Assembly (NCBI GenBank): GCA_947568835.1
Contig: OX387606.1
Span: forward strand, 22,917,225-22,981,224
Length of the DNA: 64,000 nt
Origin: Protonemura montana
Lineage: Eukaryota; Arthropoda; Insecta; Plecoptera; Nemouridae
Reading direction: 5' to 3'
Below the pieces are notes generated by a model. The model saw nothing but the letters and a program-made list of their open reading frames with translations, was not told the DNA's origin and did not search any database. Within the stretch, counting starts at the first letter, position 1. Every line of letters begins with the position of its first letter. Made by a program: the position numbers and the translations under genes. This document shows, piece after piece, positions 3,525-56,245 of the stretch.

Positions 3525-6500
3525 CTCGCTAAACGCCTCGCTCTTCGAGGGGCTTGCTCGCACGGAGTATCTAAGTCTGGCCGACAACTCCCTCCCCGAC
3601 CTGCTGGGCGCGAAGGGCATACTCAAGCACATGCCCCTCCTGAAGACGTTGGACTTCGGTAGGGTCGGCTTGCTGGCTCTCAACGAGAACGACTTTCAGG
3701 TACGGCATCTACCCATCATACAACTATCGTGAGATTCCAGGAGAGGGTGCCAGTTTGGAGGCAGGGCCTTCAGGTGCTAAACTTGCTACCAGGGAATAAG
3801 GAAGCACATTTTTTTGTAAGTTTAGAGAGATAACAATGGATATTGCTATGTAAAGAGCATCTAATACCGAGTGCTCACGCGTTACCGTCAATGAGCAGTT
3901 TATGGTGGAAGATCATAAGCCAATTCTGTTCGGGAGAGAGGTTGGATAGGATCGAAGCGCATCCACTCGGCTTGCCTTCAAATCTCTCTGCAATTTGGGT
4001 TAGTGTAGGAAACCTGGTGTTTGAGTTGTATCGTCCTTCGGAAGAAACAAACCAGTGACCACTCCTTCACGCTGCATCCGTTAGTGCACTAAATTCACTG
4101 ATGTGTTTCCTGTCTGCCGATCAGGACGTGCCCAAGCTGCAGCACCTAGTGCTGGCTGGCAACGCCATCACGCGAATGGACCAGCAGTCCATTCCGCCTC
4201 TAATCCGGCACCTCCACCTCGGGCGCAACCAGCTTACTGATCTCAACGGGACGTTGCGGTGAGTGTGGTGATTGCTGAAGTCTCTAGCAGTTTTCAGAGC
4301 ATATAATCTAGTTCCACGTTGTGGGAAATCCCAAGGAACCGCTTTGAATAGAATATTGTTGCTCGTGGAAAGCTTACTTGAAATGCACAGTCTTCTTAAT
4401 TCAGTTCATTTATCTGCCTTTTGTTTAATGCTAAATAAATTACACTTGCAAAGAAATATATAGCACTTTAGGTCCCTTTGAAGAAATTGGGAATGACCGA
4501 CAAAAAAGTCCCATAAAATGACTGCTAACATATCTCTCCGTCTTTCTCTCTCCCTGTAATGACTATGCACTAAGAGATTTAGGAAAAATGTGTTTATTTT
4601 ATTAGTTAATTTTTTTGGATCTAAAAATTAGCTGCGATACTAATTTGCTTGTTGCCCCTTCCAGCGACCTCTCGGAACTGGAGTGGTTGTTCCTTAACGG
4701 CAACCAGCTGACCTCGCTCGAGAACCAATTGCCACTGGGGGCGGCTAAGCTGAACCTGTTCCACATGGCACACAATCAGCTGGAGCGTTTACCTGCTGAC
4801 CTGCGCAGCTTCCTGTTAGTCGAGTCTATCTACTTCAACCACAACGCGTTGTCTTCATTGGACGGGGCGCTCCAGAAGGCTAGGAGGCTGAAGAGACTGC
4901 ACCTTTCCCACAACAACATAGCCAAAGTAAGCTCCTGTGACCTTGTGATTCCATCACAAGTTCTATCAGATTCCACAATCTCACAAGAAAGTCAGCCCAC
5001 GAAGGATAAAAAAGCTTCCCTCGATGCAAGCTGGTTTGACAGACCCTATAGGAATTAAATTTGTGGCTTCAAGACTTAGGCAGCGCTTTGATCTTCCACA
5101 TAATTGCGTAAAACGAATTGGTTAAAATTTGGGTGTGATATATCTGCAATTCCAGTTACCTTATCGTCACCTCTCACTGTATGGAGGTAGGACGTATGGA
5201 CGTGAAATATTACTGCATAAACAATTAATCAAGACCATTGGAAAATTGTGCGGTTGAATAGGCAAATTTTAACTGGCTATTTTAAAGTAAGATTTTCTTC
5301 ACATAATTTATTATCGAATAATTTAAGTGGCCAGGTCTCTGACCGAAATGGATTGTGATTTTATGGATGACTTTTTGTCGACAGCTCGCTGAGGATGAGT
5401 TCCTTGAAGTGGATCGGCTGGAAGACCTACAGCTTGGTCACAACTTGTTGACCTCGCTCAACAACTCCCTACTACCGATGAGGGCGCTGCGCAGTCTCAA
5501 CCTGACGCACAACCTGCTCACAGAGTTCTCCCTGCAGGAGATTCGAGGACTCAAAGGTACGTCCGCAAGCAGCAAGGTCCTGCAGGTTGTACCATAGGCA
5601 GGCTGGATGTATCACATAGAAGACCTGTCACCTGTGCTGTCACCTTTTACTTCCTTAGGCCAGGTTTTGCAACTTTCAAACTATTAACTTAAGTTGGAGT
5701 GAAAACAATTTCTTTGGCAATTGCAGAAAAATTCAATCTGCCATTAATTTAACTGAGATCATGTCAATCACTGCCTGTTGGCAAGATTCGTTTGCATGCT
5801 TTAGCATTATTTTTACTAGGGATCCCTGTATGGTATTCAAGTCGTATTAGGAATTAGCATACATTTTGTTTGAAGCTAAAATGTAGTTTATCTATACATG
5901 ATCCAGGTAGGATGCCACATACAATCAAAATAATCAAGAAACCATTCCATAAATTTAAAAATAATTACTCTTATTTAAACAACACAGCTATAGTTTTCTC
6001 AAAATATAACAAATAAAGAAATTAAAACAAGCACCCAACCAGATCTAAAATGATTGAGCGACTATCAGAAGGCTTACAATTGCATTAAAAGCCATGTCCG
6101 TGTAACTGCAATTGTGGTTATCGTGAATGAAAGTAGGTGTGTATTTGCTTGCTTGTAGCCTTGCGTCTCATCGACCTGTCCAACAACCGCATTAGCAAGC
6201 TGGGTGGTCGCATGGAGCAGAACTTGGTGGAGCTGGAGACTCGTGTGATCGAGCTAAAGCTGGAACACAACCTTCTGCAATCGCTGGATGGCTCGCTGAT
6301 GGGCTTGCACGGTCTCGAGCGTCTCAATCTCAGCCACAACCACATTGAGAGCATCGCACCCGACGATCTCATCGGTCTCGACCAGCTAAGGGTGCTAGAC
6401 ATCTCGCACAACCACCTCACAACGTTGGAGGAGACATCCAAGGTGACCTAGCATGCGGAGAACGGACCTGGGAGGGAAATAACCAGTCCCTGTTTTATCA

Positions 6501-8705: not shown

Positions 8706-9150
8706 CTCAAATAACCTGGATAGAGCATAGGATCCAGCCAGCTGATCTCAAATAACCTGGATAGAGCATAGGATCCAGCCAGCTGATTTCAAATAACCTG
8801 GACAGAGCATAGGATCCAGCCAGATGATCTCAAATAACTTGGATAGAGCATAGGATCCAGCCAGCTGATCTCAAATAACCTGGATAGAGCAGAGGATCCA
8901 GCCAGCTAATCTCAAATAACCTGGATGGAGCATAGGATCCAGCCAGCTGATCTCAAATAACCTGGAGAGAGCATAGGATCCCGCCAGCTGATCTCAAATA
9001 ACCTGGATAGAGCATAGGATCCAGCCAGCTAATCTCAAATAACCTGGATGGAGCATAGGATCCAGCCAGCTGATCTCAAATAACCTGAATAGGCTTAGGA
9101 TCCAGCCAGCTGATCTCAAATAACCTGAATAGGCTTAGGATCCAGCCAGC
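8706..9150. repeat. 41-bp minisatellite, about 11 copies (orientation A)
   Basis: Direct repeats of a 41-bp unit containing CTCAAATAACCTGGATAGAG and GGATCCAGCCAGCTGAT, with a few substitutions per copy. It begins about 70 bp after the LRR poly(A) signal. The same unit in reverse complement forms a second array at 21909-22345. Confidence 0.9.
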
Positions 9151-9434
9151 CAAACAAAATTGAAATCAGGCAATTTTGCCAACAGATGAGACCCTAATTT
9201 GGAGATATCCATGATTTTAATGCTTACTTTAGATTTTAGAAACATGTTTGTAACCAATTTTGACCATTGAATTGGTGAAAACCACGAAAAATACCGATAA
9301 AAAAACACTTAATGTAGCACGGGTCCTGGAGGGAACTCAAAATCAGGGACTTGGCTTGGCTTGGCTTGGCTTCAAAGTCTCTTCATAGGAATTGCTATCC
9401 AGGTGATTTGAGATCAGTGGCGCTAATATACCTA
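9151..9434. other. Spacer with a solo inverted 41-bp unit
   Basis: AT-rich DNA with a short run of GGCTT repeats near 9352-9372. At 9391-9416 sits a partial 41-bp unit (TATCCAGGTGATTTGAGATC) in the opposite orientation to the neighbouring array. The target duplication TATACCTA of the transposon occupies 9427-9434. Confidence 0.5.
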
Positions 9435-9921
9435 TGGGTCATTCCATGTGTAATCACTCACTTTTAATTAAATTTCACTTTGACCGACCCAGATTTTGAT
9501 GAAAATTGGTATACTTGTTAAGTTTGTTGACTTAGGGGCTATTTTTTTTTTTTTTTTTTTTTGGTCCAACCGTTCGGATATTACAAGGGGGGGAAGTTGG
9601 GGTCATTTTGCCCCCCGGGCGTGTAGTGACCACCCTTTCTACGCAATATCTAGGGTTCTATGGGAGCTACAGAGCTGGGAAAAAAATCATCTGAAAGGTA
9701 ATTTCATACCCTACCTGAATATGGAAACAAAAATGACGATATGTTAATACGAATTTAATTGTGATTTTACACATCTGCATTTTCCAAAATGACCATATCG
9801 CTGATGAGTCATTTTTGATTTGCCTGATTTTTTTTCTATATATACAGAACATACATATGATCATGTGTTCCAAAAATCAAGATGGGTGTTTTACCACTTT
9901 CCAAGAAAAAAAATTTTTTCT
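9435..9921 (+). repeat. Left terminal inverted repeat of the transposon
   Basis: About 487 bp that pairs with 13070-13547. The reverse strand contains a 68-aa open frame (9667-9873) whose mirror appears at 13119-13325 on plus. This identity is a consequence of the inverted repeat, not evidence of a gene. Confidence 0.9.
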
Positions 9922-10019
9922 ATAAAAAAGTGCCTTTTTGCCAGTAGAACAGCATTTTGATCACAATTATTGTGATCAGAGCACTGGCATATATTTTATA
10001 TTAAAGTTGATTTTTGTTT

Positions 10020-10276
10020 GCACAGTTGCATGTTCTTGAAATGTTATTCTCTACAATACAAATCGATTGTTTGCCATATTCCTGTAAATCATGGATCAAG
10101 TTGAAACAGTTCATAGAAGTCAAAAGTTTGTTCATTTCTTGTCTGGACTTGCATCTACAAGAATCTTAAAATGGTATTCCCTAGAATACAACTATAGATT
10201 GTTTGTCATGCTCCTGAATCATGGATCAAGTTGTAACAGGTTACAAGTAAAAAGTTTGGTAATTTCTTGTCTGGAC
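10020..10276 (+). repeat. Two tandem ~130-bp subterminal repeats upstream of the transposase
   Basis: Two imperfect copies (about 10020-10148 and 10150-10276) share an ATCATGGATCAAGTTG block and a TTTCTTGTCTGGACT block. They lie between the left inverted repeat and the ORF, where transposase-binding or promoter repeats often occur. Confidence 0.7.
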
Positions 10277-10357
10277 TAAAGCAATCAGTCTCTGGCCTCA
10301 TGTTGATGAGGATAGAAGCTAATTTGCTCTCAAGCACCTTTTATTTAGAGATTCATA

Positions 10358-12940
10358 ATGTGCTCAATTGGACTGTTCTTTGAAGAAGAATGTGGACCCA
10401 TCGAAGATCTAGCGATTAAAAGCATTGAAAGTTTCAATAGTGACCAGCAGTTATCATTAGCTCTGCGTACTAAGTGTGATAATGTGAAGACCGTGTGTCA
10501 TTTACATGAAAAGAAATTCCTTCGTCTGTATAGCTGTCACCACAAGTTATGCTGCGATCCGTTTCAGGCTCACTGTGGAATAGTGAAAGTTAATGGGTTA
10601 AGAGAAATTAATGCAGCATCCAGGACGAAATACTTGGAGATTGCCGACCTCATCCCTGGAAAGAAATTATGCTCAACTTGCCGTAAGCTGCTCTCGCTCA
10701 GGCTGAAGGAACTAACAACCGTTTCTGTTCTAACGCCAACTAAATCCACTGAACTTGACCTACCTTTCGTGGACATACCCTGTGAAGCAGATGCCGTGAA
10801 TCAGTCTTTAGCTGCATTTGGTGTGTCACCTATTAATACCACCAAACTAAAGGGTAAATCTATGTTTTATTCGAAAAGAAAGTTCAGCGAAATAACACAA
10901 GGTGTAAAGAAGAGATTGGAACTAGTATCTCCCAGTAATGAAGAAATCAGCAAAGAAGATTTGACATCTTCAGAGGAGTGCAAGGACAGCATCCGTGATG
11001 GGTCAGAGATAATAGCACAACTGAAAGAAAAGTTTAAGACGAGTACCAGAAGCGAGAAAATAACAATTTTATCTGTGCTTCCAAAAAGTTGGAGCATTAA
11101 GAGAATAATGCAAGAGTTCAATGCATCTAACCATTTGGTACGTAAAACCAAACAACTAGTAAAGGCCCAAGGGATACTGCCATCTGCAAATCAAAAAGCA
11201 GGAAAAACTCTTTCCCCTGATTGCATTCAACTGATTGAAGAGTTTTATGAAAATGATGATGTAAGCCGTGTCATGCCGGGTAAAAAAGATTTTGTCTCGG
11301 TTAAAGTGGGTGACAATCGAGTTCACCGCCAGAAGAGACTAGTGTTAAGCAACTTAAGTGAAGTGTATCGCAGCTTCAAAGATAAATATCCTGACATCAA
11401 GGTTGGATTCTCGAAGTTTGCAGAGCTCAGACCCAAACATTGTGTTCTGGCAGGAGCAGCTGGGACACATTCTGTCTGTGTCTGTACGATACACCAAAAC
11501 GTTAAGTTGATGGCTTTGGGAGCAAAGCTGCCTTTGCTTTCAGACGGTACCATCAAATCATACCAACACTGCCTTGCCAGCCTCATGTGCAACCCCCCGC
11601 TTCTCAACTGCTTTGTAGGAAAGTGTGGCAATTGTCCGGGAACCGATGAACTTCGTGAATGGCTAGAAATCTCATTCAGTGAAAATTTCATAGACTCTGT
11701 GACTTATAAACAGTGGCTGTCAACAGACAGATGTACCCTAGAGACAATTACGAAACCTACAGATGAGTTTGTTGACTGTTTTATTGAAAAATGCATTTTA
11801 TTAAGAAATCATGATTTTATTGCACGGCAGCAAGCGGCATTCATGCAGGAGAAGAAAGCCAACCTTAAACCAGGGGAAGTTTTAGTAGTGGGCGACTTCG
11901 CTGAGAATTATTCTTTTGTGCTCCAGGATGCTGCACAAGGTTACCATTGGAATAACAGCCAATGCACCCTTCACCCATTTGTGTGTTACTTTAAGCCTGA
12001 AGATCGAGACATACAACATTTAAGTTACGTTGTCATTTCTGACTCGCTAACTCATGACACCGTTACTGTGCACACTTTCCAAAAGCACCTGATAAGACAC
12101 CTGAAACAAAACATTTCGGATGTATCCCATTTAATTTACTTTTCTGATGGAGCGGCAGCCCAATATAAGAATAAGAAGAATTTTTCCAACTTGTGCCATC
12201 ATGAAGTTGACTTCGAACTAACTGCTGAGTGGCATTTTTTTGCCACATCCCACGGTAAAGGACCATGCGATGGAGTTGGTGGGACTGTAAAACGAAATGC
12301 AGCACGGGCAAGTTTACAGAAACCATATGCCGACCAAATAATGACGCCGATAGACTTTTACCGGTGGGCAACAGAAAATGTGTGGACTGTAAATTTTGTG
12401 TTTGTAGCCAATGAAGAGATTACAGCAAATGGCATCAAACTTAAAGAACGATTCAAAGAATTAAAAACTATCGTAGGCACAAGAAGCTTTCATGCGTTCT
12501 ACCCAAAATCGCTAACTTCCTTACATGTGAAACACTTTTCTCTTTCTGAAGAAATCAACATTGTGAAGATTGTTGAGAAAAATGAAGAAGGAGAAGAAGA
12601 AGAAGAAGAAGAAGAGGAGGAAGCAACAGCAGCAGAAATACCCGAGTTTGAGTTCAAAGACGTGGGCAGTTTCATCACTGTAGCATACAACGAAGACTGG
12701 TGGCTAGCGTGTGTTCTTGAAAAATCATCACAGTCTCTTGAACTTCAAGTCAACTTTCTACACCCTCATGGACCAGCTCCATCATATTTTTATCCCAGTG
12801 TACAAGACAAACTAATTGTAGCTTTTGCTGATGTTTTAACACTGGCCGACCCCAACACGGCAACTGGTCGAACATACTTTTTGTCGGCTACAGACACCAA
12901 CAGGGCAACAGCAGGGCTTATAAAATATGTACCTCAATAA
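10358..12940 (+). CDS. Putative DDE-type transposase, 860 aa, unassigned superfamily
   Basis: Single-exon ORF inside the terminal repeats, ATG 10358 to TAA 12938-12940. The N terminus (about residues 40-110) is a Cys/His cluster ending LCSTCRK, a likely zinc-binding DNA-recognition region. Residues about 240-275 look like a helix-turn-helix (SIKRIMQEFNASNHLVRKTK). The conserved core has acidic candidates in VVGDFAENY (about D513), YFSDGAAAQYKN (about D597) and SHGKGPCDGVGGTVKR (about D638), plausibly an RNase H-fold triad. A Glu run follows near 743-755. The last 90 residues (DWWLACVLE, HPHGPAPSYFYP) resemble an SH3/Tudor-like module. I recognise similar predicted proteins in other invertebrates from memory but know no family name. 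Catalysis is inferred, not shown. Confidence 0.8.
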   Translation: MCSIGLFFEEECGPIEDLAIKSIESFNSDQQLSLALRTKCDNVKTVCHLHEKKFLRLYSCHHKLCCDPFQAHCGIVKVNGLREINAASRTKYLEIADLIPGKKLCSTCRKLLSLRLKELTTVSVLTPTKSTELDLPFVDIPCEADAVNQSLAAFGVSPINTTKLKGKSMFYSKRKFSEITQGVKKRLELVSPSNEEISKEDLTSSEECKDSIRDGSEIIAQLKEKFKTSTRSEKITILSVLPKSWSIKRIMQEFNASNHLVRKTKQLVKAQGILPSANQKAGKTLSPDCIQLIEEFYENDDVSRVMPGKKDFVSVKVGDNRVHRQKRLVLSNLSEVYRSFKDKYPDIKVGFSKFAELRPKHCVLAGAAGTHSVCVCTIHQNVKLMALGAKLPLLSDGTIKSYQHCLASLMCNPPLLNCFVGKCGNCPGTDELREWLEISFSENFIDSVTYKQWLSTDRCTLETITKPTDEFVDCFIEKCILLRNHDFIARQQAAFMQEKKANLKPGEVLVVGDFAENYSFVLQDAAQGYHWNNSQCTLHPFVCYFKPEDRDIQHLSYVVISDSLTHDTVTVHTFQKHLIRHLKQNISDVSHLIYFSDGAAAQYKNKKNFSNLCHHEVDFELTAEWHFFATSHGKGPCDGVGGTVKRNAARASLQKPYADQIMTPIDFYRWATENVWTVNFVFVANEEITANGIKLKERFKELKTIVGTRSFHAFYPKSLTSLHVKHFSLSEEINIVKIVEKNEEGEEEEEEEEEEATAAEIPEFEFKDVGSFITVAYNEDWWLACVLEKSSQSLELQVNFLHPHGPAPSYFYPSVQDKLIVAFADVLTLADPNTATGRTYFLSATDTNRATAGLIKYVPQ

Positions 12941-13069
12941 GGTAAACTACATCTCTCTTAAGATATGCAAATTTGTACTTCATAGTAGCTATGATTGTAA
13001 GTAATGATCATTTTCTTGAATGTTGTCTTAAATTCAGTTCATATTAATTTATATTATGAATGAATTTGC

Positions 13070-13547
13070 AGAAAACATTTTTTTTTCTTGGAAAGTAGTA
13101 GAACACCCATCTTGATTTTTGGAACACATGATCATATGTATGTTCTGTACATATAGAAAAAAAATCAGGCAAATCAAAAATGACTCATCAGCGATATGGT
13201 CATTTTGGAAAATGCAGATGTGTAAAATCACAATTAAATTCGTATTAACATATCGTCATTTTTGTTTCCATATTCAGGTAGGGTATGAAATTACCTTTCA
13301 GATGATTTTTTTCCCAGCTCTGTAGCTCCCATAGAACCCTAGATATTGCGTAGAAAGGGTGGTCACTACACGCGCGGGGGGCAAAATGACCCCAACTTCC
13401 CCCCCTTGTAATATCCGAACGGTTGGACCAAAAAAAAAAAAATTAAAAAATAGCCCCTAAGTCAACAAACTTAACAAGTATACCAATTTTCATCAAAATC
13501 TGGGTCGGTCAAAGTTTGAGGTGAGTGATTACACATGGAATGACCCC
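13070..13547 (-). repeat. Right terminal inverted repeat of the transposon
   Basis: Pairs with 9435-9921, starts about 130 bp after the transposase stop and ends at the second TATACCTA duplication (13548-13555). Confidence 0.9.
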
Positions 13548-13555
13548 TATACCTA

Positions 13556-14829
13556 GGAACTTATCTGTGTACGTTGGACCCTCAACGTTCGAGTGGACTG
13601 CTGACTGAATGACAAGAAACCTTAACGATAGGGAGCTGAGAACTGGTGATTATTAGGATGATATTGGTTACCAGACAGGCAAATGATAACAAGGATATCA
13701 AATTTCCTGGAGTGATCTTTAAGTCTCTTCACCCAGCAGCGATTATACAGATTAATATTTCACAAGTAACAACATTCCTGTCCACAGCTTACAAACATTA
13801 AGACGAAATATGGATCAAGTTTCTACTTTTGGTACTTTACATTTAACACGAGTTCATACTGCGCCAAATGATAGCAAGTAAGTAATACTTCGGTAACTGT
13901 ATGATATTTAGTTTCTGAGAGCCTGGCAATGCTGAACATTTTGCAAATGTATGCGTTCATATTTGTGGTAGGGAACAATAATTAACAGCGATTTTATGAA
14001 ACTTGGTTAATACAATATTAAATGTTTATTAATACTTATTAAATCATATACTAAATTTCACAAAATCCGAGTGCTAAAAGTGCAACTTTACTGCTCGGTA
14101 GATTATAAAGCCCCTTTAGTTCAGAAGCAGCAGCCATAGTCAATTTGAGTTAAGGTCTGTAAACGTACACAGCATAACATTTTTAGAAAAGAAAAAACAA
14201 AGAAAATAATGAAAAGAATTCTTGTAAAATATAAAGATTCAACCCTGTACACTTGCAGCTCCGTAAAAGATTTCAATTCGCTTCCAGTTCCTTACGTACA
14301 CATGTTTGGAGTGACTGCATGTAATGAGTATGTATTGCGGCATTACTTGTTTCTATAACTAAATTAATAAATTAGATATAAAAGCCCACATATAAATATG
14401 TACATTAATGTACACCACCTACTCAATTCGATTCAAACCTAGAAATAAAAGATTCAACAAAAACTCAGTGCCCTTCAGATGGTAAAAACCAGTGTTAACG
14501 CTGTCGAATTGACTCATAATATCGGAGTTAATTCAATTTTATCCGGAAATTCTTTGCGAAAATACCTTGCGAATGAGAAACGCAGAAGCACTGTCAGAAG
14601 AATCGGCGGGAAAAAAACCGTGATTTTTGGCATTTATACGACGCTACGGAAAAGCAATACGGCGCCGATCGCAAAGCATTTAGGAGCCACCAGTAGCCCG
14701 TCCGCCCGTCACCCTCCTGTACAGCTCGGGCACGCAATACACGTAGAAAAACACAGACCATACCATCATGAAGGTGCGCTGTACATTCCGAAAGAACCGG
14801 CGCCGGGATAGCCGAGCCTGGCAGCGGCA
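13556..14829. other. Convergent intergenic region and ZER1 3' UTR
   Basis: AT-rich, with no supported gene. On the minus strand this is downstream of the ZER1 stop. Minus-strand AATAAA (plus TTTATT at about 14024-14029) is a possible distal poly(A) signal. The open frame 14479-14811 on plus is mostly antisense to the presumed 3' UTR and has no recognised domain. Confidence 0.4.
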
Positions 14830-17800
14830 TCATCCATCAAGGGTCAGCATTTGGTGGAGGTTTTCCGGCCACTGGTTCGCCTGGTGGCGCTGGCAGTTGT
14901 CCCGTACCATTGTTGCCAGCTCCTTGATCTTTGGGTATGGTAGCGGATGCGAGATTATCTCCTGGAGCACCACCAATCCACCCTCGGCTTCCACCAGAGA
15001 GCAGTATTTTGCGGCTGTAACCACGAGAGAATCCATACACATACATACACATAATTATAATCCATAATAATAATCTATTATCACATAATCCATTATAAAC
15101 ACATAATCCATACACATAATCCATACACATAATTGGTTAGTTAGTAGAAAACGCCAATTTGTTCGCGGTTTTATTTCAGAAAATATAAAACACGATAGTT
15201 TTTTAGTTATTGACCCTGATTATTTGAGTTAGATGCATTTAGGAAGCTTGAACTAAGTAATAGGCATCATTTTGTGTGGTTCTTTTGTTATCGGAAAATT
15301 GTCAGGACTGCTTTAACCCTTAAAAAGTAACAGGTACAAGTTACGAAACTTTGGGAAATTTAGTTGTTCTTCACTTAGCATTCAAAACCCAGTTGAAATA
15401 CTTTTTGTCACAAGAGAATCCGGCTCCACGACATCAAAAACGGACATCTTTCCACTGTCTTGAATAGTTCACGGTATCGGTAAACCACCGATACTCACCG
15501 AGTTAATTCTATTTGCACAACTGAGGTTAAGCTGAATATCCCCACATTTCTTACTCAGTTTACAAAACCTACTCCTACCGGGAGCTATTGCTGTGGTTAC
15601 TTTTGCCTCATACTCAAAGGAAAGGAAGTTTGGCATAGAACGGCCCTTTAGCTAGAGAAAACATGTTAGAGTAATCCTTTATTCTTTTCTATTATTATTA
15701 TCATTAAATTATTATCAAAATTGTTTACTATTTATCTGTGCTAATTGATGGCGAAAGGTGGACACAATGATTCAATTCTCTGATTAGGTTCAAGTTATTG
15801 AGACGTGGTAGTGTTTATTATAATAAAACACTCAGCCTATTACCAGTATTTTCCATTGAAGTAAAATCAAATTTGATTTGGTGCTGTTCGTTTAGAAGAA
15901 GACAGGTTGCAAGTAAAGCGGTTGTTGCTAAGACTACGTACAGAAACACATGTTTCGGGGAGAACGACTTACGGTAGACTTTGGTAAGGTTGGCAAGTGC
16001 CCATATGGCCCAGTGCTGGCACTCAGGAGAGTGGTAGACCTGCGCCAGGTGGAGGATAGGCTCGAACGATCGGTAGTTGATGTTGCGCTCGGTGGCGAGG
16101 TCCCAGCGTTCGATGGCCGAGACCATACGTGACAGGACGTCTTCGCGGCGCGGGAACACCAGCGTCCACGCCGCCGCCCCGTCAGAAGCCATGTGCGCCA
16201 ACACGCCGGCAGCATTGTAGCTCACCTGCGGAGGAGGAAAAAAGTTCTTATGGTTTCTACAAATGGGTTTTGAATGCTAAGCTAAGAACAACTATTTTTC
16301 TTGACGTTTCGTAACTTACGCCTGTTCCTAATCACTCAGTAATCACCCCTATCACCCAAGATCGAGTAAATGGCAAAAGTTACCTTGAGCTAACTCTAGG
16401 GCAGTGAAATAAGAAATTTCCATACACATAATTGGTTAGTTAGTAAAAAAAACCAATTTGTTCGGGATTTTATTTCAGAAAATACAAAATACGTTATTTT
16501 TTGAGTTATTGACCCTAACTATTTTATTTAGATGCATTTAGGAAGCTTGAACTAGGTAATAGTCATAATTTTGTGTGGTTCTTTAACTTTTGTTATCAGA
16601 AAATTGTCAGGACTGCTTCAACCCTTAAAAAGTAACAGGTACAAGTTACGAAACGTTGGGAAATTTAGTTGTTCTTCACTTGGCATTCAAACCAGTTGAA
16701 ATAATTTTTATCAAAACTAGTGCTAAGTTTACATCAAGTAGACATGAGTCTACAAACAATCATAAAAAATTAGTGATTTTTTCAAGCCCGAACGAACTGC
16801 TTTGAACTCGATGGGCGTGACAGTCACGATGTAAGCATCACCTCACTAAACAACGAGGAACCGTACCTCGATGCCGTCGCTGCAAGACTCGAGGAGATCG
16901 GAAAACACGGAGACAAACTGCGAGGTCATCAGCCGGCAACGCAACGTCTGCACCTCGGCCACGTTGCCCAGGAGACCCATCATGTTGCGCAGCAACTCTT
17001 CTTTGTCCGGGAACGTCTGGGAATCCAAACACGAGGAACATGTCTGAATACTGACAGCTCTGCAAGAAGGCCTTGTGTGTTATCAACTTTTAAAACAAAC
17101 ACAAAATATTCAACCATACATATTAAATGGTAGATTTAACGTTTAGTAGCCATGGATATGCTGAGATCGCCTGACAGAGCTTCTCAATTCTGTTATCTTA
17201 TGTTCCCACGGGTATATCATAGCCTAGCATAGGAGGTTCAATGGTAGATTCAACGTTTGGTAGCCATGGAGATGCTGAGATCGCCTGACAGAGCTTCTCA
17301 ATTCTGCTATCTTATGTTACTGCGGGTATATCATGGCCTAGCATAGGAGATTTAATGGTAGATTCAATGTTTGGTAGCCATGGAGATGCTGAGATTGCCT
17401 GACAGACCTTCTCAATTCTGCTATCTTATGTTACCACAGGTATATCATGGCCTAGCATAGGAGGTTCAATGGTAGATTCAACGTTTGGTAGCCATGGAGA
17501 TGCTGAGATTGCCTGACAGAGCTTCTCAATTCTGCTATCTTATGTTACCATGGATATATCATGGCCTAGCATAGGAGGTTCAATGGTAGATTCAACGTTT
17601 GGTAGCCATGGAGATGCTGAGATTGCCTGACAGAGCTTCTCAATTCTGCTATCTTATGTTACCACGGGTATATCATGACCTAGCATAGGAGGTTCAATAG
17701 TAGATTCAACGTTTGGTAGCCAAGGAGATGCTGAGATCGCCTGACAGAGCTTCTTAATTCTGCTATCTTATGTTACCACGGGTATATCATGGCCTAGCAT

Positions 17801-20800
17801 AGGAGGTTCAATAGTAGATTCAACGTTTGGTAGCCAAGGAGATGCTGAGATCGCCTGACAGAGCTTCTCAATTCTGCTATCTTATGTTACCACGGGTTTA
17901 TCATGACCTAGCATAGGAGGTTCAATGGTAGATTCAACGTTTGGTAGCCATGGAGATGCTGAGATCGCCTGACAGAGCTTCTCAATTCTGCTATCTTATG
18001 TTACCACGGGTATATCATGGCCTAGCATAGGAGGTTCAATGGTAGATTCAACGTTTGGTAGCCATGGAGATGATGAGATCGCCTGACAGAGCTTCTCAAT
18101 TCTGCTATCTTATGTTACCACGGGTATATCATGGCCTAGCATAGGAGGTTCAATGGTAGATTCAACGTTTGGTAGCCATGGAGATGATGAGATCGCCTGA
18201 CAGAGCTTCTCAAGTCTGCTATCTTATGTTACCACGGGTATATCATGGCCTAGCATAGGAGGTTCAATAGTAGATTCAACGTTTGGTAGTCAAGGAGATG
18301 CTTAGATCGTCTGACAGAGCTTTTTAATTCTGCTATCTTATGTTACCACGGGTATATCATGGCCTAGCATAGGAGGTTCAATAGTAGATTCAACGTTTGG
18401 TAGTCACTCTTAGAATTTGGTTTCCAATTAGTCAGAGTCTCAGCACTAATGTTTAACTGTCCCTGAGCTTCCTGCGCTTGTTGGGAGATGTCTCAAATGA
18501 AGATGACCGGGAAGCAAATCCAGTTCTGCCAACATTGAGACGACTCGTGTGAGTGCATACCCGCAAGCAGCCGAGGAAGAACTCCATGCCCTTGCCGTCG
18601 AGGAAGCGTAAACAGTTGATGGCTGTCTCATCGGTCACGTTCCACATCGTTGACCAAGCCACTTCAAGCACATCATCGCAGATACCGCGCTCCAGCCGGT
18701 CTTCAATCAGTGCCAGCATCCGCTGATGAACACACAGGAAAGACATTCACTCTTTAAGTATGAACAGGATCAGTTTTAACTGCGCCAGTGATGTGATTCG
18801 TAACACCGATATTTGAACGATAAGTGAAAAATGTAGAAGGGTGCACTTAATAAAAAAATATTGTATCATTATAAACACAAATAACCTCTCAAAAAATTGT
18901 ATGTAATTGGGGCTGGAACCCCGATCTCCCCCTATCATGGGTGTTGCTCTAACCAATACTTGGACATCCTTTTTGAGAGGATAGTTTATTTGTTGAGAAC
19001 TATGCATCCCAAAGGATAAGAACCATGAGGCTGTGAATGCTCACAGTCACTGTAATTCCAGTGACTGCAGTTATACTGTGTCACAACCATTCAATCTCCG
19101 GTAGCTCAAAGTTGACGTTGGATGCATTTTATGCTATGGAATCCGAGTTAAATTGAAAATGCTTGCTGAGTATTATTTTCTTACTAGGAATGCTAATAAC
19201 CTCAAAAAAAGTTTAAAATAGTGTCATATTAATAAAATACACTATATTTGCAAGTATTTGCAATTTAAATAAGATTCAAAAGAAAAGATAAGTCTTTAGC
19301 ACTGTGCTCCCCCCAAAAGATAATATTTATTGATGTCGAATTAGGATCAAAGTCATCACTAGCAGAGGCGTTTGTGCACGACGCCCGCAAATAAATAGGA
19401 AGACACATGAATCATTCAAAATGTCAGATCTAATTCACGCTGCACATCTGGGACGCACCTCGATTGCTCCAAGATCCCCTAGCAGCTGTTTCTGAAAGCC
19501 ATCAACTTGGCACGCCAGTGAGTTGAGCAGGTAGATTCCGATGCGTTGCACGAAGCCTTCTTGCTCCATCTCGGAGACAATGTACAGCAAGATGTGCACC
19601 AGCCGGCGGTAGTCAAACAGCTGCGAAGCAATGCAGAGCTTGTTGGCACAGAACTGGGTGGACAGACCACTTTTCTTTTCGTTTCGGCTTTAACAAAACT
19701 CTTTCGGAGCAAATAGCGGAGCATCAGTATCACCAAACTATTTCACACGGACTCTGACAACGTTCAACAAGCAGGCAGATGTATTTTTAACAAGCAAAAA
19801 AAGACAAAAAAAAAAGACAAAAAAAAGTGTAAAATTGAGGAAATAAATATGTCAAAAAGTAAAAAAAATGACCAAAATGCAACCCTGAAAAGGTCCCAAA
19901 ATTGCAATAGCAACCTAAAATGTCCGCTGCAAACCATAAGTAGTACGCTTATCAAGTTTCAAAGAAATAATATAAAAACTACACAACAGAATTGAGAGAA
20001 AAAAATCATATTTCAGATTTTTGGACTCCCTCCCTCCCCCCCCCCCTTTCCTCATTGGCACCACAAATAACGAAATCTTCCAACCTTTCTTAACAGTCTG
20101 TTAATTTGTTATTTGCTTAGCAACAGTCAATCAGAAGATGTTTTATGTTTGGTAACGATCTGGTAATCATTTAACAGACCACTGAAAGACTGGCACTTAT
20201 TGCAAACTGGCAACTTAACATTGGTAAAAACTTACCAATGACTTGGTTTACCAATTGAATGTCGACAATTTATATTAGTTGTGGTGATGAATTTAAGAGA
20301 AAGAGAGGGCAACTTTACCAGCGGAGAAAATTGACATGCACTTGTCGAGAAATATCTTGACCACACCATGCCACACAAATTTTCTTCAAAAATAAGTTGC
20401 ACTCCCTCTCTCTTTTCTTCTTTACCACAACAAATACCCCATCTGATGGTTTTTAGACTCATGTCTACTTGATGTAAACTTAGCACTAGTTTTAACAAAA
20501 ACTATTTCAATTGGGTTTTGAATGCTAATTAAAGGGCTACTACTTTACTTAGCATTCAAAACCCAGTTCAAATAGTTTTTCTTAAAAACCCCATCTATTT
20601 GCATTAAGAGAAATATGTAAGCTACACCAAACCGTGCCCTACAACTTCTGAAAGAATCTTCTGGATTCTAAACGTTGTTTGTCAAGTGCTCACCACGTCT
20701 TCAGGGATCTTGAACTGGCAGAGTGTGAGACAACCGTTCCGCAGCATGGTGTCATCATCTTTGTGTGCCGCCATGCCGTTGAGCAACGAACTAATGATGC

Positions 20801-23800
20801 TACATTTCATCCTCGGACCAAACACATGACGACTCTCCTTGCCCTTCACGATGTAGAACAGAGTCGCACTGGAACAAACGCAGGTGCTTTGTGAATGGAT
20901 AGAAAAAGTCAACAAGGAGTTCAGTTGAACGATTTGTTCTGGTTAACGACGCACTCCATTACTTTGGTTCGAACAGAATGCCAACAAGTCGCATTTAATT
21001 TAAATAAATTATTTAAGAGGTAAGAATGCCAAATGTTTGTTATGAACTGGGTTGATTGATTGATTAGTAAAATTTATCGACACACCGTTTTGACAACGGG
21101 CCATGTGGCTTTGGTGAATGAGCGGATGATGATAAGGATGATGAAGAACCTTACCTGGTAGGAGGGGAAACCTGGTACCGGCACTTAGCCTTCACTTTTT
21201 GAAGAAATCAAGGGGACAACCAGCTTAACGTCTCCACCGAAGGACTGTTCAACATGTTCCACAAATCCATGCTGTCGAGAGGCTGATAAGCAAGGCGAGT
21301 GAAGTTGCTGTGCTAACTTTCATCCCTCCAACCTCTCTCCCGAACAGAGTGAGGTGGTCACCCATCCAATAACCGACCCAGTGCAATGTTGCTAAACTTT
21401 GGTGATCTTTAGAGAGCCAGTGTTTCCGACGCCCCAACCCGTTAGGTGGGGAGTTTAAACTGTAACTCTAAAGGCGCTTTCCAGCACTGTAAATCAATAT
21501 ACCTATAATCCTTCTCTATGTGTCCGTTGGTCCACCTACCTTCCTGAGATCTGTATGTGCTTCTCGTGTATATGCCTGTTCATAGCTTCCAGTACGGTGC
21601 CGAGAGCCTGGTTCATGTTCTGGCACGTCTCGTAGCGGAAAAGGTGGTAGAGCTCGTTCAGCACTTTTTGCAGCACCTCTGGCCGGTCGATGTAAGCTGC
21701 AGCCGCCACCAGAATCTGAGTCTCGTTGCAATCTCCCGAGATCTGACCAGGGACGGTAACGGTTTTAGTTTCGATCGTTATTTTTCTGCATCTCTCCAGT
21801 TGTCCAAAGCTTTAGAAGGCTTGACAGGAACAGAATTTTGATGATACAATTGTTATGGCAGAGGAAATGCCTACAAGACCTGGAGAAAGGTTGTGGGGAG
21901 CAACATATAATCTATGCTCTATCCAGGTTATTTGAGATCAGCTGGCTGGATCCTATGCTCTATCCAGGTTATTTGAGACCAGCTGGCTGGGTCCTATGCT
22001 CTTTTCAGGTTATTTGAGACCAGCTAGCTGGATCCTATGCGCTATCCAGGTTTTTTGAGATCAGCTGGCTGGATCCTATGCGCTATCCAGGTTATTTGAG
22101 ATCAGCTGGCTGGATCCTATGCTCTATCTAGGTTATTTGAGATCAGCTTGCTGGATCCTATGCTCTATCCAGGTTATTTGAGATCAGCTGGCTGGATCCT
22201 ATGCTCTATCCAGGTTATTTGAGATCAGCTGGCTGGATCCTATGCTCTATCCAGGTTATTTGAGATCAGCTGACTGGATAATATGTTCTATCCAGGTTAT
22301 TAGAGATCAGCTGACTGGATAATATGTTCTATCTAGGTTATTAGAGATATCGAGCGTAACACACCATCCTGGCAGGAATGTCGTGCCTCCTGCACGCTGC
22401 GTGCAAGGTTCCGTAGAGCCCAAGGAAGTCCAGGGGGCGGCCTACTCGCGAACTCAGCCCCGGGATGTCGGTCTTGGGGGCAGGTAGATCCGACGGCCCC
22501 GCCACCCCCGTGCCTGCCAGGTTCGTGCCCGAGATGTCCAGCGAGGTCAGCTTGGGCAAGCTCTCCACCAGCAACGACAGCGTCTGATTTTCATCGGTGA
22601 AAATCCCGCTGGGCTCGGACAGCTGGGAGACGTCAAGGTGTCTGCGGATGACAGAACAATAAAAATTATAATTTGTTAATAATAATAATGTAATAATAAT
22701 GGTGGGACAGATCGAGACTTATCATACGCCTCCTGAAGATGAGGAGCCGTGCCTCGCCGAAATGTTGAGAACCTAGGCCCTAATTAGGGCTCCCAAACTC
22801 ATCTAACCTGAGCTTATGAGGCTGTGGTTTTGATTTTCTTGCCAAAAGAATTATGGCTGGCAAGCTTTAGGTTGAATATTTATCGCTACTTCTTGTCAAG
22901 TCTAGGACATAGTAGGTAGAGAATACAAACAAGTCTGGTCTGCTAGTAGGGTTTTTCGATTACAAAAAAAACCCTTCGTATCCTAGCCAAAGTCAGTTGT
23001 GATCCATGTTGTCCTGGAGTTATTTATAAAGATACTTGTGTTGAATTATTCCTGCATAGTATCATAGTTTGTAGGTATGTTCCTGCAACACTAGTATTAC
23101 CACTATACCATCAGAATTATTATCAGAATTATTACTATTACTATTATCATTATAACTGTATTTTATTAATATTACTTTTATGTACTATCCTGACGATCCT
23201 TAACGGGACTCATGGCTTGTAAATGTTTTTTTATTTCAGCCAATAAAGGAAATCAATCAATCAATCAATCAATCCTACGCTTCAAAATTATGACATTGCC
23301 TTCTATCTACATTAACAACACTATTTTAGTTAATTAATCTAACATTAAACCAGATAAACATTGATGTACCACAGCTCGAGACATGAACGAAGTGAGGTAA
23401 AATACTCTACGAATTTTAAAGTCACAACGAAAAGCTAACTTCGGGCCGGTTATAAACTGTGGAGTGTTTTACCCATTGACTTAAAGAACAAACTTAGTCT
23501 CCAGGATCAACCAGCATTTAAATCTATGTTAACAAAATAGCTGGTAGATAAATGTTTTTATTCCATTGACAGCTACTTGGCAAAGGCCGGAAAGGATTGA
23601 TATACTTGTTGTACTCTTAAAATGTATTCTAAAATTGTCTTGTTTTCTAAAATGTGTACAATGTGATGCAGCAAATGTGGGCTTTATTCATTTATCACTG
23701 TTTTATATCAACCTTCATCTCTGGAAAATAAAATGTATTATTATTATCATAATGTCATGGATTCATCAAGAATCTTGTGTCAGAATTATGATTCACCGCC

Positions 23801-26776
23801 CACAACTGAAGGGCATTAGCTTTCAGTTGATAAACAACAATTTAAATAAAAACCTTTGCAGCTGTGTATTTATTTGCTTATCAACTAACAACATGAATAA
23901 CCACTAAATTCCTGGTAAACAGCGTTCTAGGTAGTTGACACTTTACGTTTGTTGCTTTCTTTGCTCTTTTGTTGACATGATAGCAGATCGATGACACTAA
24001 GGAAACGCATGCACTAAATGGTTTCAATGCTCTGTGCGGGGAACGATTCAAACCTTTCATTGAGGCGTAAGTCATTGCATTGGTCCCTCAATTGGTCCCA
24101 TTGTATTGGTCATTGTATTGGTCATTGTATTGGTCATTGTATTGGTCATTGTATTGGTCATTGTATTGGCAAAATCATGGATCTAAAAGAGATTTAGCTC
24201 AAAAACAACAAAGAAAATACAAAGTGAGAAAAAAAAAAAAAAACTAAAACTTCAGGCTTGGGTCCCGCAAACATTACAACACAGAACTAGGAAACCTATC
24301 GCTGTCAGTCCCTCTTGGAAACTCCTGGGGCATCCAGCGGTAAAAACATTGTTTGAGTTGCACGATGCATCATAGGCGGGACCAGCAATTTTTTATAACC
24401 TGTCAAGAGGGACTGAAGGACATGAACAAAGACAGGGCTAATTTTAAAAGCATAGCTAAGAGCTTTTAGCATATTTGTAGGATATTGACAAGTACTTGAA
24501 TAGAAGACAGTGCGATTGTAAAATTTGTATTTAAAAATTACCAATCTTTGACATAACGAAAACTATTTGAACTGTTTTTCCATACACATAATTGGTTAGT
24601 TGGTAAAAAACGCCAATTTTACATTAGTTTTTTAGTTATCGACCCTGATTATTTGAGTTAGATGCATTTAGGAAGCTTGAACTTGGTAATTTTGTTATAA
24701 CTTTGTGTGGTTCTTTTGTTATCAGAAAATTGCCAGGACTGATCTTACCCTTGAAAAAGTAACAGGTAAAAGTTACGAAACGTCGGGAAATTTAGTTGTT
24801 CTTTACTTAGCATTCAAAAACCAGTTGAAATAGTTTTTATTAAAACTAGAGCTAAGTTTACATTAGTTGACATGTTTCTATTCTCCAAAAGTGTATTTTA
24901 TCAAAGAATACCTTGTTTTTAAGTGTGTGTGTTCAGAAAGAGCAATGAAATAAATTTATTAATGGAATCCTTTGCTTGTTGGTTTCAGCTCCCTTGTGAA
25001 ATCACCAGAAAAACCAAAAACCCTGCAAATATATCTCTGATTAATTGGTTTCCCGTCCTGGTTAATTGGTTTGTTACCGGAGTGTGGTGAGCCTGCAGAG
25101 TGTGGGCACTGCCTCCTGTATATGATCGACGTTGTGTAGCACGAGCGAGACCAGTCCCTTGAGGTCCAACAGGTATGAGAAGTCCCCGAGAACCTCGCAG
25201 CCCGACAGGTCGAGGTGCGTGAGGTTGCGTAGCGGACGGACCAGCGTCGGGAAGAACGAGCGCTCCAGCGGGACTCGGTGGTGCCTCAAGGCCAGTCGCC
25301 GCAGCCTGCAATCGGTGACAGTCAAGACGAGGGAGCCACTTCAAGGTCAGGGTTATCGATCGCGTAACTTTCTCGATAGAAATCACGAAATTTATCTCAT
25401 TAAATCACGTTTATTAACCCTGTAATTTACCGATATTACTTACATGATCTCTCACAAAAAAGTTACATGAAGATACCCAACTCTTGCAGAGAAAGCAGGT
25501 CAGTTTGCCAGCTCTGCAGTATTATAAATTTGTCAGGCGGTCCTTTTGTTAGCAAAACACGTTGTACAATTCTCTTCACCGGTGTGTTTACTGATCTGAG
25601 CAGTTTCAAAAGTTCCCGCACTAACTTACTCTGGCTCTGGGGGCAGTGGGAAAAGTGTGACTCGGTGTCAACAGTAAAAACAGCTAAAATTTGAGCAGCG
25701 TGAATTTGAACATTTGGTTTGATAAGTGAAGAAACAAGCTGCAGCCGTAGTGATGAGGCAGGACATTCTGACCAACAGTTAGTGGAACAAATTAATTCAA
25801 AAGTGTGTCTCTTTCTTGTTAAAACTCTCATTTACTTTCAACTTTTACATGAGAGGAACGGTGAAATAATTGCAGACGCCCTACTCTACAAGAACACGTT
25901 TCAGATTCTTTTCTCTATAGATTACCTGTGTACCTACATCGCTGCTTTTACCATTTTTACCCCAAATTTGCACAGCCACCAGGATGAATGGATAATTTTA
26001 CAATCAGCCATTGTTTGGAGTTTAACCGTTTGATAGAATTTAAGAGACAAACCAGTACCTACTGGCTGTTTTAAATAAAAGTCAACTAAAAGAGTTTGTT
26101 ACTTAAAAACTTTGTATATCAAGCCAAAAATTAGGTCAAAATTTGTTTTACACATTAACATTCTAATGTAAGTAGTAGGTTGAGTATTTAGGTTATACCA
26201 GAGAAGTCATAAGTAGTTAGAAGAGTATGCAAATAATCACCTGGGAGCTTTGAGAATGTACCCTCTTCTCAAATAGATGCTGTCCACATCAGACATCAGC
26301 GGTTCTTCAGTCACAAGAGATTGCGGCATAATACGGGCAGTCGACCCAACGACCAGAGAGACTAAATTACAGCTATTTTCATTTATAAACTCAAGGGATC
26401 TGTCCGTTAATTTGGGGCAGTGCGTGATCTCAAGTTCTGACAGTTTGTGCCTCATGACTGTTCGGAGTCCATAGTCTGTAATCTTCGCATTTCTAAGTCG
26501 GACCTTTTGCAGTCGTGTCGTTCGAGTATCATTAAAAATGTTTAAAACTCTATCATCGAGTACCAGACCACTTTCGTGCTGAAAACCTTGCAAAAGTTTC
26601 TCGCAAATTTCTGTTGGTATAACTATATCTTTGTGTAACACAAAATCTTTTGTGATGGGATGAGCTGTGCCAATTGTTTCAAGATGTTGGACAACATATT
26701 TAGAGCATAAGTCTAATAATGTTTCGGGCCCTTTATCGGCACAGTCCAATGTAAAGGGCATTACATTGCCTGCCAT
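14830..26776 (-). CDS. ZER1: Protein zer-1 homologue, CUL2 E3 ligase substrate receptor
   Basis: Ten coding exons, minus strand, all GT-AG with compatible phases: 26776-26241, 25305-25078, 22641-22365, 21742-21540, 20868-20694, 19653-19459, 18722-18561, 17016-16867, 16225-15973, 15014-14830. The joined CDS is 2364 bp, 787 aa (human ZER1 is about 766). Residues about 18-33 (ETLLDLCSKYVVQHLE) fit a VHL/Cul2 box; LRRs follow (HLDVS, LTSLDISGT), then C-terminal armadillo repeats. ZER1 and ZYG11 recruit proteins with N-terminal glycine degrons to CUL2-Elongin ligase. W565, D569 and N610 here have the spacing of the known glycine-pocket residues, so recognition is probably intact. The start was chosen as the first ATG after a UTR acceptor at 26820. 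ZYG11 is the alternative; motifs such as NINYRSFEPIL and MTSQFVSVFSDLLES favour ZER1. Confidence 0.95.
15121..15410. mobile_element. MITE-like dispersed repeat, copy 1 (ZER1 intron 9)
   Basis: Shares CATACACATAATTGGTTAG, GATGCATTTAGGAAGCTTGA and ATTCAAAACCCAGTTGAAAT, in order, with copies at 16419-16750 and 24559-24876. No coding capacity. It follows a short CACATAATCCATA simple repeat at about 15040-15120. Confidence 0.7.
16255..16750. mobile_element. MITE-like repeat, copy 2, forming a foldback (ZER1 intron 8)
   Basis: 16419-16750 is a second copy of the 15121 family. At 16263-16318 lies an inverted partial copy (GGGTTTTGAATGCTAAGC, GACGTTTCGTAACTTAC), so 16263-16720 can fold into a long hairpin. 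It starts 38 bp upstream of the acceptor of the exon at 16225. Confidence 0.6.
17129..18405. repeat. 114-bp tandem repeat, about 11 copies (ZER1 intron 7)
   Basis: Regular 114-bp units each begin GGTAGATTCAACGTTTGGTA and contain CTGCTATCTTATGTTACC and TATATCATGGCCTAGCATAG. They fill most of the 1.54-kb intron between exons 18561 and 17016. Copies differ at a few positions. Confidence 0.95.
20275..20437. mobile_element. MITE with GTGGTG...GAGAGAGGG inverted ends (ZER1 intron 5)
   Basis: Left arm GTGGTGATGAATTTAAGAGA plus AGAGAGGGCAACTT pairs with right arm AAGTTGCACTCCCTCTCTCT and TTTACCACAAC. The same family occurs complete at 29797-29992 and partially at about 32075-32165 and 40610-40695. 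Confidence 0.65.
20445..20595. mobile_element. Foldback MITE of the AAACTATTTGAACTGGG family (ZER1 intron 5)
   Basis: An inverted repeat surrounds a short loop: AAAAACTATTTCAATTGGG with TTTTGAATGCTAA at left, TTAGCATTCAAAACCCAGTT at right. Related to 39809-40003 and to the ends of the 24559 copy. Confidence 0.65.
21050..21443 (-). mobile_element. 5S-derived SINE (ZER1 intron 4)
   Basis: Reverse-complement copy. The tail GATTGATTGATT is at 21054-21066 and the 5S-like head near 21355-21435 (GGTCACCCATCC, then AATGTTGCTAAAC). It is more diverged than the copy at 54 kb. It ends about 97 bp from the donor side of exon 21742-21540. Confidence 0.75.
21909..22345. repeat. 41-bp minisatellite, about 10.6 copies (orientation B, ZER1 intron 3)
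   Basis: Units of 41 bp with TATCCAGGTTATTTGAGATC and AGCTGGCTGGATCCTATGCT, the reverse complement of the array at 8706-9150. The array ends about 20 bp from the 5' splice site of the exon at 22365. Confidence 0.9.
24080..24170. repeat. 12-bp tandem repeat (ATTGGTCATTGT)n
   Basis: About six to seven consecutive copies of a 12-bp unit in ZER1 intron 2. Confidence 0.9.
24559..24876. mobile_element. MITE-like repeat, copy 3 with terminal inverted repeats (ZER1 intron 2)
   Basis: Same internal sequence as 15121-15410. This copy shows both ends: AAAACTATTTGAACTG at 24559-24574 and the complement CCAGTTGAAATAGTTTTT at about 24821-24838. This links the family to the foldback MITEs at 20445 and 39809. 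Confidence 0.7.
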
Positions 26777-54116: not shown

Positions 54117-54556
54117 AATAATAATTATTATTTGTGGTGTTTAACGACGCACTGTTTTGACAACTGGCCCTGCGGCACTGGTCTAATGGCGTCGGTGAAT
54201 GAGTGGATGATGATGAACCTAATCTAGCCTAGAAGGGAGGAGGGGAAACCCGGTGCCGGCACGTAGCCTACTCCTGTCGAAAAGCACCAAGGGGACCACC
54301 GGCTTCACGTCCCTTCCGAAGGACGGTACAACTCGAACAGCAGGATTCCTCCACAGATCCATGCTGTCGAGAGGTTAATAAGCGAGGCGAATGAAGTTGC
54401 TGTACTAACTTTCATCCCTCCAACCTCTCTCCTGAACAGAACTGGTCATGTGTATAATGGTCACCCATTCAATACCTGACTCAGCGCAGTGTTGCTTAAC
54501 TTCGGTGATCTAACGAGAACCGGTGTTTCCAACACGTCAAACCGTTCGGTAGATAT
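54117..54556 (-). mobile_element. 5S-derived SINE, full length, inside the 80-bp satellite
   Basis: The best preserved copy, read in reverse complement. Tail AATAATAATT at 54117-54130, then GGTGTTTAACGACGCACTGT, the central body, TCTCTCCTGAACAGAACTGG, and the 5S-like head (GGTCACCCATTCAATACCTG, GTTGCTTAACTTCGGTGATC) ending CAAACCGTTCGG at about 54550. About 440 bp. Confidence 0.85.
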
Positions 54557-56245
54557 GGTGAATAACACGCGGGTCAACTTAATGTCACTGTATCTTATAG
54601 GGCTCTAAAGTGGGTGTCTTTTTGGTTCTCTCTTATGGTGAATAACACGCGGGTTAACTTTAGGTCACTGTATCTTACAGGGCTCTAAAGTGGGTGTCTT
54701 TTTGGTTCTCTCTTATGGTGAATAACACGCGGGTTAACTTTAGGTCACTGTATCTTACAGGGCTCTAAAGTGGGTGTCTTTTTGGTTCTCTCTTATGGTG
54801 AATAACACGCGGGTTAACTTTAGGTCACTGTATCTTATAGGGCTCTAAAGTGGGTGTCTTTTTGGTTCTCTCTTATGGTGAATAACACGCGGGTCAACTT
54901 TAGGTCACTGTATCTTATAGGGCTCTAAAGTGGGTGTCTTTTTGGTTCTCTCTTATGGTGAATAACACGCGGGTTAACTTTAGGTCACTGTATCTTATAG
55001 GGCTCTAAAGTGGGTGTCTTTTTGGTTCTCTCTTATGGTGAATAACACGCGGGTCAACTTAATGTCACTGTATCTATAGGGCTCTAAAGTGGGTCTCTTT
55101 TTGGTTCTCTCTTATGGTGAATAACACGCGGGTCAACTTAATGTCACTGTATCTTATAGGGCTCTAAAGTGGGTCTCTTTTTGGTTCTCTCTTATGGTGA
55201 ATAACACGCGGGTTAACTTTAGGTCACTGTATCTTATAGGGCTCTAAAGTGGGTGTCTTTTTGGTTCTCTCTTATGGTGAATAACACGCGGGTCAACTTA
55301 ATGTCACTGTATCTATAGGGCTCTAAAGTGGGTGTCTTTTTGGTTCTCTCTTATGGTGAATAACACGCGGGTCAACTTAATGTCACTGTATCTTATAGGG
55401 CTCTAAAGTGGGTGTCTTTTTGGTTCTCTCTTATGGTGAATAACACGCGGGTCAACTTAATGTCACTGTATCTTAAAGGGCTCTAAAGTGGGTCTCTTTT
55501 TGGTTCTCTCTTATGGTGAATAACACGTGGGTCAACTTTAGGTCACTGTATCTATAGGGCTCTAAAGTGGGTGTCTTTTTGGTTCTCTCTTATGGTGAAT
55601 AACACGCGGGTCAACTTAATGTCACTGTATCTATAGGGCTCTAAAGTGGGTGTCTTTTTGGTTCTCTCTTATGGTGAATAACACGCGGGTCAACTTAATG
55701 TCACTGTATCTTATAGTGCTCTAAAGTGGGTGTCTTTTTGGTTCTCTCTTATGGTGAATAACACGCGGGTCAACTTAATGTCACTGTATCTATAGGGCTC
55801 TAAAGTGGGTGTCTTTTTGGTTCTCTCTTATGGTGAATAACACGCGGGTCAACTTAATGTCACTGTATCTTATAGGGCTCTAAAGTGGGTGTCTTTTTGG
55901 TTCTCTCTTATGGTGAATAACACGCGGGTCAACTTAATGTCACTGTATCTTAAAGGGCTCTAAAGTGGGTCTCTTTTTGGTTCTCTCTTATGGTGAATAA
56001 CACGTGGGTCAACTTTAGGTCACTGTATCGTATAGGGCTGTAAAGTGGGTCTCTTTTTGGTCTCTTATGGTGAATAAAACGTGGGTCAACTTTAGGTCAC
56101 TGTATCTTATAGGGCTGTAATGTGGGTCTCTTTTTGGTTCTCTCTTATGGTGAATAACACGTGGGTCAACTTTAGGTCACTGTATCTTATAGGGCTGTAA
56201 TGTGGGTCTCTTTTTGGTTCTCTCTTATGACAAATAACACGTGGG
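54557..56245. repeat. 80-bp satellite array, about 21 copies
   Basis: Units contain GGTGAATAACACGCGGGTCA, CACTGTATCTTATAGGGCTC and GTGGGTGTCTTTTTGGTTCT. Two main variants are interspersed, GGTTAACTTTAGG and GGTCAACTTAATG. Several units lack one or two bases after TATCT. Divergence rises toward the right edge (after about 55990), as expected for array borders. Confidence 0.95.

Follow-up and report, generated by a model that had tools for sequence, protein, structure and literature searches.

To which kind of DNA transposon does the element at positions 9435–13547 of a 64,000-nucleotide stretch of the Protonemura montana genome (Plecoptera: Nemouridae) belong, and is it complete enough to be moved by its own protein? 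The stretch, referred to here as the window, covers positions 22,917,225–22,981,224 of the forward strand of contig OX387606.1 (assembly GCA_947568835.1). The locus very likely holds a complete DDE/D-type cut-and-paste transposon with terminal inverted repeats (TIRs), one that is probably autonomous and resides in an animal genome; we leave its superfamily unplaced. We consider it highly probable that the element is a TIR transposon mobilized by the transposase it encodes. The original prediction, made from the letters of the window alone, had described an intact DNA transposon with exact borders marked by an 8-bp target-site duplication (TSD), inverted ends of ~480 bp and an uninterrupted open reading frame (ORF) of 860 codons; each of these features was recovered (Table 1).

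Borders, inverted ends and GTCATT sites

The duplicated sequence, TATACCTA, lies flush outside both ends of the element, whose outermost tips read TGGGTCATTCC and GGGGTCATTCC. When flush lengths of 1–12 bp were compared, the two flanks matched only at 2 bp (TA) and at 8 bp, and no flush direct repeat of 9 to 12 bp exists at the element borders. A flush direct repeat of 7–10 bp was found in 7 of 200,000 random 4113-bp spans of the window; because such a match is this rare by chance, we count the duplication as evidence for the transposon. The window holds one further TATACCTA, at 21498, and five copies of its reverse complement. The duplication length of 8 bp is read on one copy of the element, and the 64-kb window contains no second copy. 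Nor does the window contain an empty site, since the 2500-bp flanks on each side match elsewhere only tandem arrays and short repeats.

The inverted ends are long and closely alike. Local alignment of 9433–9921 with the reversed 13070–13549 yields 469 identical columns out of 479, with 10 mismatches and three gaps (6, 4 and 1 bases). Without its two leading columns, which hold the TA of the TSD, the alignment has 467 of 477 columns identical, all inside the element. With gaps counted, blastn between the arms gives 95.7% over 487 columns, and a repeat search resolves them into a 443-nucleotide block at 98% and a 29-nucleotide tip block at 97%. Such terminal inverted repeats are the mark of a class II TIR transposon. 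The ends differ in the very first base of the element, which is T on the left and G on the right when the right end is read inwards (TGGG against GGGG, the latter in GGGGTCATT). The two arms stand at a Jukes-Cantor distance of 0.021; should they already have differed when the element inserted, this value is an upper bound for what has changed since then. Taken together with the intact ORF, this distance points to a fairly young copy. On the evidence of the uninterrupted ORF and the closely matching ends alone, the element could be active at the present day.

The arms also share an array of GTCATT hexamers, newly noticed in this analysis. Each arm carries five, in mirror arrangement, one of them at the tip itself (GGGTCATTCC), with three more in the 3148-bp middle of the element; the 59,887 bp outside it contain 35. 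The motif was picked after inspection of the arms. In dinucleotide shuffles of the left arm, GTCATT reached at least five copies in 0 of 500, and any hexamer of four different letters did so in 1 of 500. Among overlapping 487-bp segments elsewhere, 9 of 1188 hold at least five GTCATT sites, and none of the 1148 that remain when two tandem arrays are removed; across the whole window the motif shows no enrichment, with 48 occurrences against 44 expected. We regard the array as a candidate transposase-binding array, and it offers a concrete binding-site prediction whether the superfamily is new or already named.

Table 1. Features of the transposon, in window positions; residues are those of the 860-residue ORF product.
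Feature	Position	Strand	Basis or remark
Whole transposon, 4113 bp (TGGGTCATTCC...GGAATGACCCC)	9435..13547	+	borders and end alignment
Left copy of the 8-bp TSD, TATACCTA	9427..9434	.	
Right copy of the 8-bp TSD, TATACCTA	13548..13555	.	
Left TIR, ~487 bp	9435..9921	+	local alignment of the arms
Right TIR, ~478 bp	13070..13547	-	local alignment and repeat search
Five GTCATT sites, left arm: 9438(+), 9602(+), 9732(-), 9788(-), 9808(+)	9438..9813	.	candidate transposase-binding motif
Five mirror GTCATT sites, right arm: 13179(-), 13199(+), 13255(+), 13385(-), 13539(-)	13179..13544	.	
Imperfect tandem duplication, period ~130 bp, 1.9 copies, between left arm and ORF	10034..10277	+	
Transposase ORF, single exon, 860 amino acids	10358..12940	+	ORF list, coding periodicity
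Cys/His cluster, residues 40–108; probable zinc-/DNA-binding domain	10475..10681	+	sequence reading; no Pfam match
Second Cys-rich stretch, residues 362–426, before the proposed core; putative function	11441..11635	+	sequence reading
Proposed RNase H-like catalytic core, residues 505–700	11870..12457	+	very low-confidence model, mean pLDDT 36.7
D513 of GDFAENY, proposed catalytic residue 1	11894..11896	+	read from sequence
D597 of SDGAAAQY, proposed catalytic residue 2	12146..12148	+	read from sequence
D638 of HGKGPCDGVGGTVKR, proposed catalytic residue 3 (spacing 40, DD40D)	12269..12271	+	read from sequence
C-terminal module, residues 770–860, with HPHGPAP (802–808), after an acidic run	12665..12937	+	best Pfam match GH97_C, E 0.054, below cut-off

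The transposase and its proposed core

The ORF follows an in-frame stop at 10346 and far exceeds chance length: in 200 mononucleotide shuffles of the element, stop-free runs reached at most 182 codons, compared with 860 codons here. Its three-base periodicity, expressed as position asymmetry, is 0.0190; none of 300 segments of the same length starting at 14000–60000 exceeded 0.0127. From the left tip to the start codon there is a single TATA-like match to TATAA[AT], at 9921, where the left arm meets the interior of the element. Downstream, AATAAA is absent from 12901–13560, and ATTAAA occurs at 13233 and 13442, both inside the right arm.

All the motifs that had been singled out in the original prediction are present in the protein, namely GDFAENY, SDGAAAQY, GPCDGVGG and HPHGPAP, starting at residues 512, 596, 635 and 802, respectively; the helix-turn-helix also claimed there found no profile support in Pfam-A searches. 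The stretch HGKGPCDGVGGTVKR occupies residues 632–646. We propose, with moderate confidence and from the motifs themselves, that D513, D597 and D638 form a catalytic triad of the DD40D type, the spacers being 83 residues from D513 to D597 and 40 from D597 to D638. K645, seven residues past D638, is reminiscent of the Glu-to-Lys spacing in integrase cores.

A single-sequence AlphaFold model of residues 505–700 provides a weak hint in the same direction. At a mean predicted local distance difference test (pLDDT) score of 36.7, it runs strand, strand, strand, helix, strand, helix, strand, with D513 just past strand 1, D597 just past strand 4 and D638 past strand 5. RNase H-like transposases have this very order of elements, hinting that the region may adopt their fold. 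Fold searches with low-confidence single-sequence AlphaFold models were uninformative.

In the mechanism we envisage, the Cys/His-rich N-terminal half would bind the GTCATT-bearing ends, and transposase molecules would bring the two ends together. The RNase H-like core (D513, D597, D638) would then excise the element and join it to the target strands at an 8-bp stagger, and gap repair by the host would leave TATACCTA on each side.

Profile searches returned nothing significant. The whole protein and nine fragments were compared with Pfam-A (24,736 models) at E up to 10, where the best match, at E 0.015, fell below the cut-off; the whole protein and the core gave nothing significant in NCBIfam and PHROGs, and PDB sequences gave nothing significant either, the best E values being 0.76 and 1.1. 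Several weak matches were dropped: Toxin-deaminase (E 0.051 and 0.015, below cut-off), GH97_C (E 0.12 and 0.054), PHROG family 21421, annotated as 'integrase' (E 0.18 and 0.096), PHROG families 19497 and 5650, as well as FhuF_C, TXD17-like, DUF4530, phasin and two others of NCBIfam.

Pattern scans of viral contigs picked out 600, 15, 17 and 6 stretches, none confirmed by tblastn; of two further patterns, one found 0 stretches and the other 6, none of which tblastn matched at E up to 10. In prokaryote contigs a DNA pattern for peptides of the type HGKGxxDG[VI]GG occurs in 14 stretches, which we attribute to chance because the best tblastn E is only 0.97. In phages and plasmids, tblastn at E up to 1 found nothing. 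The lack of relatives in the viral, phage, plasmid and prokaryote collections is as expected for an animal element. A text search of the literature for the peptide motifs found no match, a kind of search that cannot show a family to be unpublished; a search for the tip GGGTCATTCCA brought up no transposon title among the matches listed.

Placement among named superfamilies

The claim that the transposase matches no nameable superfamily holds as far as Pfam-A, NCBIfam, PHROGs and PDB sequences are concerned, none of which gave a significant match. Unnamed proteins of many animals presumably carry the same motif set, in which case the family would be a widespread one that only lacks a label. Because the comparison stands without Repbase and Dfam, and because of these proteins, we leave the superfamily unplaced and claim no novelty. 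The Repbase system counts 20 eukaryotic DDD/E superfamilies, and many of those named are disfavoured by the length of the duplication or by their signature motifs. An 8-bp duplication fits Merlin, Zisupton, MuDR, hAT, P and Novosib.

That the superfamily is already named, being Novosib or another Repbase/Dfam group that lacks a profile searchable here, we consider a serious possibility, if a less than even one. Pfam is not known to contain profiles for a number of Repbase superfamilies, namely Sola, Novosib, Academ, Kolobok and Dada. The TSD of Novosib is 8 bp long. This group is counted among the DDD/E superfamilies and has been reported from an animal genome, that of an aphid (PMC9783078), and no result obtained here speaks directly against membership. 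Should Repbase or Dfam already have a name for it, the element would be a well-preserved autonomous member with exact ends.

We are rather doubtful that the element represents an undescribed superfamily of animal DNA transposons, one with a DD40D (GDFAENY / SDGAAAQY / HGKGPCDGVGGTVKR) RNase H-like transposase of ~860 amino acids. Such a superfamily would be further characterized by an N-terminal Cys/His end-binding domain, a C-terminal HPHGP module, ~480-bp ends with GTCATT and 8-bp duplications. Were the branch indeed undescribed, a further transposase core would join the eukaryotic DDD/E superfamilies, of which roughly 20 are named; many animal proteins listed as 'uncharacterized' would gain a label, and activity tests would have an intact candidate.

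Membership in the MuDR/hAT/P/Kolobok/Dada assemblage is unlikely. It would imply an RNase H domain with a large insertion, with the last catalytic residue a glutamate after that insertion, for example, E686 or E687. Long TIRs combined with 8–10 bp TSDs are features of MULE/MuDR elements such as Muta1, as is an N-terminal zinc-type domain (PMC5225508), and TSDs of ~8 bp are also made by P and hAT. Within the P superfamily, the cut-and-paste element Galileo has very long TIRs, up to 1.2 kb (PMC2775673). In addition, W670 precedes E686/E687 by 16–17 residues, to be compared with a distance of 18 for W401–E419 in Muta1 (PMC5225508). However, no hAT, MULE, FLYWCH, THAP or P profile was reported by Pfam-A for the whole protein or its fragments. 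A C/DxxH motif between the second D and the E is common to the MULE, hAT and P groups, whereas residues 597–760 contain no [CD]xxH, which speaks against MuDR/MULE, hAT and P provided that D597 is the second D. Galileo, moreover, is described with a 7-bp duplication. As for the two remaining members, Kolobok requires TTAA duplications, whereas TATACCTA is found here; Dada is described as having no TIRs and 6–7 bp TSDs in small RNA genes, in contrast to ~480-bp TIRs and an 8-bp TSD, and Rfam matched nothing in the interval 9200–13800 at E up to 0.1. A compact DD40D core is the more likely assignment for this transposase than a MULE-type core.

Such a compact core, lacking a large insertion, would also suit a divergent member of Merlin (IS1595-related), whose own compact DDE core has a Lys after it; we judge this placement quite improbable. 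Merlin elements are described with TSDs of 8 or 9 bp, TIRs of 24 to 462 bp and a terminal 5′-GG, and the DDE_Tnp_IS1595 domain is diagnostic of them (PMC8101967). The 8-bp duplication, the ~480-bp ends and the right end, GGGGTCATT, resemble these traits. However, the left end begins with TG rather than GG, and the Merlin proteins named in that paper measure 181–445 amino acids compared with 860 here. Nor was DDE_Tnp_IS1595, a model included in Pfam, reported for the whole protein or the nine fragments at E up to 10.

A KDZ/Zisupton element is very unlikely, since despite 8-bp TSDs and TIRs in Zisupton (PMC12730594) and a cysteine-rich N terminus here, our single-sequence Pfam-A search reported neither a KDZ profile nor one for the associated cysteine cluster, models that Pfam includes.

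The remaining candidates were rejected on their signatures. The EnSpm/Transib group (CMCT) is defined by 2–5 bp TSDs and by the motifs C(2)C and H(3-4)H, which follow the second D (PMC12730594), which differ from what we find. Mariner/Tc1 (TA), Zator (3 bp), piggyBac (4 bp) and IS3EU (6 bp) have TSDs other than the 8 bp seen here. Sola1, Sola2 and Sola3 transposases are of the DDD type, and the TSDs of Sola1 and Sola3 are 4 bp long. A Sola2-type transposase of 888 amino acids is similar in size to ours, but Sola2 is described with 4-bp AT-rich duplications and TIRs of 12–21 bp, as opposed to 8 bp and ~480 bp, and Sola was rejected on its TSD of 4 bp.

Genomic surroundings

To the right of the transposon, the minus strand carries exons of a ZER1/ZYG11-type gene, at 15821–16225 (ZER1-like_2nd, E 6.1e-39) and 26240–26776 (zyg-11 homolog B, E 5.6e-7); by these exons the host is recognizable as an animal. 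To its left, a leucine-rich-repeat coding stretch occupies 4615–5055 on the plus strand (Pfam LRR_4, E 4.4e-9).

Two 5S rRNA-like copies exceed the Rfam gathering score, at 2058–2178 (+, 63.7 bits) and 54430–54550 (-, 55.1 bits), the latter adjoining an 80-bp tandem array of 21 copies (54554–56256). These copies may be 5S-derived short interspersed nuclear elements rather than genes. A tandem array of 91-bp units (AAAGTTAAGCAACACTGCGCTGGGTC...) at 37054–37402 resembles a 5S rRNA fragment by eye and is not reported by Rfam at the gathering score.

Other tandem repeats include a 114-bp array at 17126–18403 (11.2 copies, 95% match) and a 41-bp unit forming two arrays in opposite orientation, at 8706–9150 and 21912–22348. 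The left flank of the transposon (9395–9422) carries a lone inverted piece of this 41-bp unit.

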